Shown here: piece by piece, positions 10,542 through 13,500 of the stretch
How the letters are laid out: the number at the start of each line of letters is the position of its first letter
How positions within the stretch are numbered: position 1 is the stretch's first letter
Source of the DNA: Thysanoteuthis rhombus
Taxonomy: Eukaryota > Mollusca > Cephalopoda > Oegopsida > Thysanoteuthidae
DNA length: 64,000 nt
Assembly: GCA_963457665.1 (NCBI GenBank)
Contig: OY735203.1
Span: 25,262,634-25,326,633 of the forward strand
Direction: 5' to 3'
Notes under the pieces: model-generated
The model's input: only the letters and a program-made list of their open reading frames with translations
Databases searched by the model: none
Told to the model about the DNA's origin: nothing
Program-made: the position numbers and the translations under genes

Positions 10542-13500
10542 CTGAAAAAAAAAAACAGAAACTTAGACATCGAAATATTAGAAAATAAAAGAGGAACATT
10601 TTAGATTCGTCTATTTTTAATTCTTTTTTTCTAAATTTTAACAATTTGTTTTTCACAGAAATTTTGTTGAAGTCAGTATGCTTAGTAGAATGTTTTGGGA
10701 GTTATTTTCTTTCTTTAATAATATTTGTGTGTATATCTCTAAAGTTTTCATTGCTTGTAAATCATTTAAAAACAAATATTCCGTGGTTTTTGGACAATAT
10801 TTTACTCATTGAAAGAATGCTAAGCAAATGCCTTACCCATGAAAGAATGCTAAGTATATGCGTTACTCATGAAATAATTCTAACTAAATGCTTTACCCAT
10901 GAAAGAATGCTAAGCAAATGCCTTACCCATGGAAGAATGCGAAGTATATGCGTTACCCATGAAAGAATACTAAATGCTTTACGCATGAAATAATGCTAAG
11001 CAAATGCCTTACTCATGAAAGAATACTAACTAAATGCTTTACCCATGAAAGAATGCTAAGCAAATGCCTTACCTGTGACAGCTTGACTTATGATGTCTTT
11101 GATTTCATCCTTGTCCAGGTCACTAATGGCTGCCAGTTCAACTAAAAAGTTCTGTCTTTGTTGCTACGATAAGACAAAACAGTCGTTACACAATGCGTAT
11201 AAATAGATATGAATAAATTAAACCTTGTCCATCAGATAGTATTTTGAAAAGATAAAGGATAAAAGTTATCAATATTTGTTATCATACACTTATCAATAGG
11301 AACTAGTGTCCTCATCTTAGTCGCCGTAGTCACAATTTGGTCTTTGTCCTCACCACCGTGACCCTCTTCAGGTGTCTCTTGTAATCGGTAGCCTCCTGGA
11401 AATTTATTCAGTTCATGTGCGGATGGATTGTTCCCATTCCGCTGTCAGTGCTAGAGAAGATCCATAAGTTACACTTATCTATTCAGACTAAGACTTATCA
11501 TAATGATAATTGCTCACCTCAGAATGCACGTCAAAAACGGATTCTTTATATGATGACCCTTTCTTGATGTGTATGGGCATCCATAATGTTCATCTTCAAC
11601 CATCACGAAATATCTTATACCACTCAAACACACGATCACGTGACATGCATTCTACCCCATAAATTTAAGTTGGCATCAGAAAAGATTCAGTAACCATTTC
11701 ATTCGATTCCATCAAATAGTTTAAATGGATGCTGTGCCCGATTTTTGAACTGCGCATTCTCATGACTCGTCTGTAAAACTCTGACTATGTAATTAAGCGC
11801 TATACTTAGAAAACACAAACTACTTTGGTACTACAAAACTTAGTCTAGTCAAAAAAAATATGGGGTTGCCCTGGAAAAAAAGAAGAAAAAAAAACGTCTA
11901 CAAAATAAATTTGGTACTGTTAAAACTAGAAAACTATCCGCTTCAAAGATAGTTTAAAGAGTTTAAAGACTGCTAACTTTAGTCACATATCAGAACATAT
12001 TTTTGACAACAACTGATCTGATTTGGGTATATTTACATCATTTTCAATGTCCGTATATGGTTGAAAATGAGCGAAATTCCCTGTGAATATTCTAATGGAA
12101 AATGAAAGTTATTTTTTGCATAGCATCTTGACAACAAGGTTAAATCATATCTAATTACCATCCGGATTGAGAAAAAAATTGTCCAGCCCCCACTAACTCT
12201 ACCGACAGGGAAGAATGTGAATTATGACGTCATTACTGGGGTTACCAAAAGTCTTTTTTTGTGTTATGCCACATGCTCTAGTTCATGAATATAGAGTGAT
12301 GCTTGAGGCTCATGCTCACGCGGAACTTCTCAAGCGATGGACACTCCGAATTCTGAAAGAGGACAACATTGCTGTTCCAACGGTACATTTTTTTCTTAGC
12401 CAATAGCTATATCGATTAGACTAAGTATAACGTATCAGTAGTCCATATGCTACAACTTACCTGTAGCTCCTGGTCCAACTTCTTTTCGAGGGCAGCATCC
12501 AAATCTCGCTGGTTCTTTTCCAATTCCGCTTTCATCTCTTTTTGCAAAGTTGCCATATTCTCTTCGTGTCTTTTCTCAGTAAGAGCATTCGAAAGAATCG
12601 AAGCGGCGGCACTGTGACAAACATGAAACTGACGAGTTATCATTATGCAGATTAACATCTATACTGATCACACATCGGTAAACATCATTGACGTTTATCT
12701 GCTGATAAATTTGAACATCGAGCTGCATTTCTGGCAGGAAAATCGGAAATTACGCTAATCGAATGAATGTTTAATAAAAGACACGCAATCTATTTGCCTT
12801 CTTGTGCGCAGAGAGTCACTTAGATGCTCCTGTGTCACGCGACCGATAAATAGTCGCCGCTCTGTATTTATAGACAATGGAATGACACTTAAGTATCCTT
12901 TCCAGGGCACATACCTTGGCAAAGGATATGGGGAACCCTGGAATGTTCAGATCTTCCTCTTGGTCTCACTGGGGGGGGGGGGGAGCAAATCTGGTATCAG
13001 CTTAGCTGCTGCCGTCAAATTGGGCATCAAACCGCTTTTAAGGGGGTCTGTCCTGCTCCTAGACTGATTACCACCCCGAGGCCCTATTTTACTTATAACA
13101 GTGAAAGAAAAGAATGATTCATGCCTTTTCAAAAGACATTAGTGCGAAGGTGAGCGAGTTTGAACTCGTGTCGCCGATTCCATCGCCCGCACCGTTACTG
13201 CTACGAACTGCAATACCAATCGCACCATGCGGCACTCGTGGCAATGGATATGTCTCCATTTCTGGAAGGATCCATAGTGATCCATTTGTTGCTTGTAGTA
13301 ATTGCAGGTTTTTACGGAGCTAAGGTGCTATTCCGACCTTCAGGATGGACAGCCTTTTGCAGGGTTGAAGGGCTTTGACTGCCCTGCTATTTACCCATAA
13401 CTGGAGGCAGAAGTGGGATCATGCCTCAGTGCGAAGTGAATGCAGACCGTCCCAGTTTGAACTCAGTCCGCCTATTCCATTCTGTGTTGGTAAGCGTTTG

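Follow-up and report, generated by a model that had tools for sequence, protein, structure and literature searches.

A minisatellite of donor-proximal intron sequence adjoining a predicted splice donor in the cephalopod Thysanoteuthis rhombus

Minisatellites that contain splice donors are already known in human genes. In intron 18 of human ABCA7, a VNTR of 25-bp units immediately flanks exon 18, and its first GT serves as the donor of that exon (PMC5954066). The donor 25 bp further in is also used, which leaves one unit in a transcript that is shifted out of frame and stops prematurely. The reference carries 23.7 copies of the ABCA7 unit, and counts in people run from about 12 to 427; greater array length goes with reduced expression and with exon 19 skipping, while unit retention did not vary with length (PMC5954066). 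A second human case is the minisatellite of IFI6 (G1P3, 6-16), which by the title of its report 'provides multiple splice donor sites' (Turri, Cuin and Porter 1995), and of which two downstream repeat units are cited as serving as donors in PMC4526556. Minisatellites are also described as altering exons and introns in human segmental duplications, where units average 30 bp and some activate cryptic splice sites (PMC2812944).

Here we describe a tandem array of this kind in Thysanoteuthis rhombus, in which most of the extra donors are weakened. The window, meaning the whole stretch of DNA that was analysed, comprises 64,000 nucleotides (contig OY735203.1 of assembly GCA_963457665.1, forward-strand positions 25,262,634 to 25,326,633), and all coordinates below are positions within it. 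The array lies in a minus-strand gene for which the window holds 18 candidate coding segments; one of these (the frame at 11232-11444) is unconvincing, and several others have uncertain splice boundaries. Donors could be modelled for 14 of the 18. Judged by eye, the exons appear rich in coiled coil. Five exon peptides had no Pfam match above the curated cut-off (best E 0.028), the roughly joined exon chain had none up to E 1, and PDB sequences gave no match to the gene up to E 0.01. EVC2 is a guess at what the gene may be. A search of the 2.73-Gb assembly with the two terminal exons, up to E 1, found no paralogue; its two hits were the exons themselves.

The same gene region contains other repeats and a retroelement-like frame. 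A plus-strand open frame of 465 residues at 39989-41386, probably of non-LTR type, matches Pfam RVT_1 (E 1.1e-13) and falls within one of the introns of the minus-strand gene as modelled. At 55424-55516 the minus strand carries a perfect (CT)44 repeat (GA when read on the plus strand) directly before a CAG acceptor-like site, as if it were the polypyrimidine tract of the candidate exon starting at 55424. A perfect (ATA)25 array at 39650-39725 lies about 50 bases or less upstream of the candidate coding segment near 39600, and a degenerate TA dinucleotide array at 46204-46716, 513 bp long, is the longest in the TRF list for the window.

The array occupies the first half of the last intron. The penultimate coding exon (11073-11163, minus strand; 30 residues plus 1 nt), which the initial annotation numbered exon 20, is defined by its reading frame, by splice signals and by a phase that fits the last exon, with the acceptor ...TTATCGTAG before it and the donor ACAG/GTAAGG after it. 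The last intron (10542-11072, minus strand) is 531 nt long, with its donor at 11072 and its acceptor, TTTTTTTTTTTCAG/AG, before 10541. The last coding exon (10435-10541, minus strand) supplies 35 residues and the stop, with an AATAAA at 10340. The phase-1 donor at 11073/11072 pairs with the phase-matched acceptor before 10541. The junction at 11073/11072 is thus a prediction from frame and signals, in which the donor of the first repeat unit was chosen for its frame, phase and strength.

The edge of the array coincides exactly with this donor. TRF places the array at 10802-11073 with a period of 30 and 9.2 copies. Read on the minus strand, it resolves into nine complete tandem units at 10806-11072, and direct reading adds the decayed start of a tenth, GTAAAATATT, at 10796-10805 on the same strand. 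In transcript order the units measure 30, 30, 30, 26, 30, 30, 30, 30 and 31 bases. The initial annotation had nine units of 30 bp at 10811-11072 ending at the donor; the count and the abutment stand, but the span is longer and only seven of the nine units have 30 bp. All nine begin with GTAA, in agreement with the earlier statement that a donor-like hexamer opens every unit, and the fifth base sorts them into three classes. Class A (GTAAGG) comprises four units, each starting on the minus strand at its higher coordinate as do all the others: unit 1 (11043-11072), unit 3 (10983-11012), unit 6 (10897-10926) and unit 9 (10806-10836, the unit of 31 bp). As had been noted, these four keep the exact hexamer of the presumed functional site, counting the unit that adjoins the exon. 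Class C (GTAAAG) comprises unit 2 (11013-11042), unit 4 (10957-10982, shortened to 26 bp by a 4-bp deletion) and unit 7 (10867-10896), and class B (GTAACG) comprises unit 5 (10927-10956) and unit 8 (10837-10866). When the units were aligned, with gap positions skipped and one A of unit 9 dropped, they differed at 0 to 3 positions within a class and at 3 to 8 positions between classes.

The classes follow one another in the order A C A C B A C B A. Seven of the eight steps obey the cycle A to C to B to A, so that the proposed three-unit higher-order structure is present with one B missing. This degree of order was equalled by 0.5% of 100,000 shuffles, in a test that was picked after the order was known. 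Units 1 and 6 are identical at 30 of 30 positions, so the copy adjoining the exon takes part in the turnover of the array. A plus-strand open frame at 10589-10993 runs across the array. We do not regard it as a gene; a stop-free 30-bp period would yield such a frame.

The array appears to be confined to this place. A degenerate pattern derived from the units (29 positions, exact match) was found at six places in the 2.73-Gb assembly, all of them inside the array, and the reversed control gave none; genome counts of this sort can be lower bounds for repeats. Because units 4, 5 and 9 fall outside the pattern, six of nine is the expected yield. A 379-bp query likewise matched a single place in the assembly, the array locus, and within the window the best ungapped match to the consensus outside the array reached at most 19 of 30 bases. 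IMG/VR viral contigs held no exact match to a similar unit pattern. Among the 14 modelled donors, this one alone has close copies of the first 30 bases of its intron in the 600 nt that come after it: its best four copies share 30, 28, 28 and 27 of 30 bases, and the best copies for the other 13 donors share 15 to 21 of 30. For exact copies, an origin from a dispersed repeat, satellite or transposon is rejected by the six pattern matches, all in the array. Since the exact unit pattern is confined to the array, we propose that it probably expanded where it now stands, out of the intron sequence next to the donor. The copies bear the intron side of the donor without its exon side, and no exact copies exist elsewhere in the assembly; slippage or unequal exchange starting from the donor-proximal intron would be the simplest account of both.

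The direction of this process could in principle be the reverse, with the exon boundary having adopted a GTAAGG copy of a minisatellite that already existed in the intron. The end of the exon does resemble the end of a unit, at 8 of 13 bases, a value equalled by 1% of the minus-strand 13-mers of the window and compared with 1 to 5 for 10 other exon tails. However, with the lengths scanned, the likeness is equalled at 2.3% of 3292 sites preceding a GT and at 6.3% of 585 GGT sites, so that it is not significant once a G at -1 is given. The exon is moreover in frame, and its coding sequence is unbroken to its end. We consider it very unlikely that the array came first and the donor second. The resemblance might instead be a microhomology that was used in the duplication.

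If the copies arose by duplication of a working donor, the question is how many of them could still work as one. Donors were scored with an approximate metazoan weight matrix, and pairing with U1 was computed with ViennaRNA. The first donor scores 8.45, forms a U1 duplex of -11.5 kcal/mol and is the strongest site of the intron. The donors at 10926 and 10836 (units 6 and 9) read TGG/GTAAGG and score 4.78 with U1 at -9.7 kcal/mol, which makes them plausible decoys. For the remaining six complete copies the scores lie between 1.06 and -4.22, and U1 pairing is -6.5 kcal/mol or weaker. Five of these six have no G at +5 and the sixth has an A at -1: units 2, 5 and 7 are weak, as is unit 3, a class A unit with the A at -1, and units 4 (with C at -1) and 8 (with A at -1) are very weak. 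The tenth start scores -4.87. All of the units nearest to the first donor, units 2 to 5, are weak. The window has 3310 GT dinucleotides on its minus strand. By score, the first donor ranks in the top 0.1% of these and the donors at 10926 and 10836 in the top 0.8%, while units 2, 3, 5 and 7 rank within the top 5 to 6.4%.

The modelled donors of the gene offer a second yardstick. By score the sites at 10926 and 10836 beat nine of the 13 other modelled donors, and by U1 energy they beat 10 of the 13. Three of the 13 (55340, 29276 and 20785) score under the best weak copy, and four pair with U1 more poorly than -6.5 kcal/mol. The low scores of many modelled donors may mean either that the models of several exons are wrong or that this organism can splice at weak donors. 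The initial annotation had described a run of decoy or alternative donors. This is partly supported: two of the eight extra complete copies (10926 and 10836) are good donors by score, but the other six lack the G at +5, at -1 or at both, and the description is overstated yet not idle.

Use of a later copy would have a definite effect on the reading frame. An in-frame TAG lies past the first donor at 11058-11056, within unit 1, as the sixth codon after the last whole codon of the exon, just as had been claimed. An isoform spliced from any later copy would end in GKAFA and lack the last 35 residues. The distance from the TAG to the new junction would be 13, 43, 73, 99, 129, 159, 189 and 219 nt for units 2 to 9. 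A stop that lies beyond 50-55 nt upstream of the last junction generally marks an mRNA for decay. For the two good decoys, 10926 and 10836, the TAG stands 129 and 219 nt before the last junction, beyond this limit, and decay is thus predicted for their transcripts. The loss of about 35 residues that had been put forward holds for the coding sequence, but decay is likelier than a stable truncated protein for transcripts from the good decoys.

These two copies suggest a further reading, in which the array would be a regulated or copy-number-tuned set of donors: the sites at 10926 and 10836 would be used to some benefit, the unproductive transcript lowering or tuning output. Their preserved TGG/GTAAGG and their U1 pairing, better than that of 10 of the 13 other modelled donors, would fit such a role, as would the human cases, namely the frameshift and premature stop produced by the next-unit donor of ABCA7 (PMC5954066) and the two downstream units of IFI6 said to serve as donors (PMC4526556). 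However, the first donor is both stronger and earlier than either copy, and the four units closest to it are all weak. The unchanged unit retention of ABCA7 at differing VNTR lengths (PMC5954066) also speaks against tuning by copy number, and one test found no constraint on the donor columns. Regulation by the array is an unlikely reading. Still more improbable, in our view, is a donor buffer under selection, in which copies 2 to 5 would each be missing a G at +5 or -1, the two intact distal copies would feed nonsense-mediated decay, and the number of units would set the output.

The test of constraint compared the columns of the unit alignment. Nine of 30 columns are variable overall, as are two of the nine donor columns (-3 to +6), which is near expectation (hypergeometric P 0.44 for a number this low or lower, 0.85 for one this high or higher). 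By this column test, the decoys show no significant signal of selection. The changes that define classes B and C both include position +5, a coincidence expected in about 1% of cases by chance if changes fall randomly, although this was computed post hoc; by chance B and C would have one or more changed columns in common, of whatever kind, in 36% of cases. The joint change at +5 is thus a post hoc hint of damage to the decoys. An array of RNA hairpins was also considered and is rejected, with a z of 0.67 and 149 of 200 shuffles folding at least as well.

The units might also matter without acting as donors, as binding sites for splicing regulators or for U1 that would enhance the first donor or shield the transcript from early polyadenylation. 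The repeated GTAA has partial U1 pairing in all nine units and TTCTTTC occurs in six of the nine, and in C. elegans the intronic minisatellite CeRep25B is described as enriched beside multiple alternative splicing decisions (PMC4039745). The intron is short, at 531 nt, which argues against such a role, and we give it very little credence.

We hypothesize instead, and consider it probable, that this is a neutral minisatellite formed in place from intron positions +1 to +30, with splicing at the first donor and two minor decoys. These positions of a gene for a coiled-coil protein would have been duplicated in tandem, each copy carrying the intron side of the donor without the exon side (CAG). 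After the initial slippage or unequal exchange, a three-unit block would have expanded. Splicing would take place at the first copy, the sole holder of both halves of the consensus (CAG/GTAAGG), and six of the eight other complete copies would have drifted neutrally into weak U1 sites. The two distal class A copies may be strong enough to take a minor share of splicing, and the resulting transcripts with the early TAG would probably be degraded. The locus adds another donor that has become part of a tandem repeat, and so provides a natural experiment on how far the exon-side half of a donor protects it against eight nearby intron-side copies. If splicing does reach the distal copies, the number of units could act as a heritable control of expression.

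In layout the array resembles the human ABCA7 VNTR: it adjoins an exon and its first unit starts, at the level of sequence, at the donor of that exon; its nine units of 26-31 bp also place it among donor-containing minisatellites of the ABCA7 and IFI6 kind. Unlike ABCA7, it has nine copies in three diverged classes, six of its eight extra donors are weakened, and gene and unit are unrelated as far as seen. With IFI6 it shares a minisatellite of repeated donor-like sites; in the human gene several donors are used in transcripts. Its unit length matches the 30-bp average of the minisatellites in PMC2812944; those are variable repeats in recent primate paralogues, whereas for the terminal exons of this gene the genome search found no match other than themselves.
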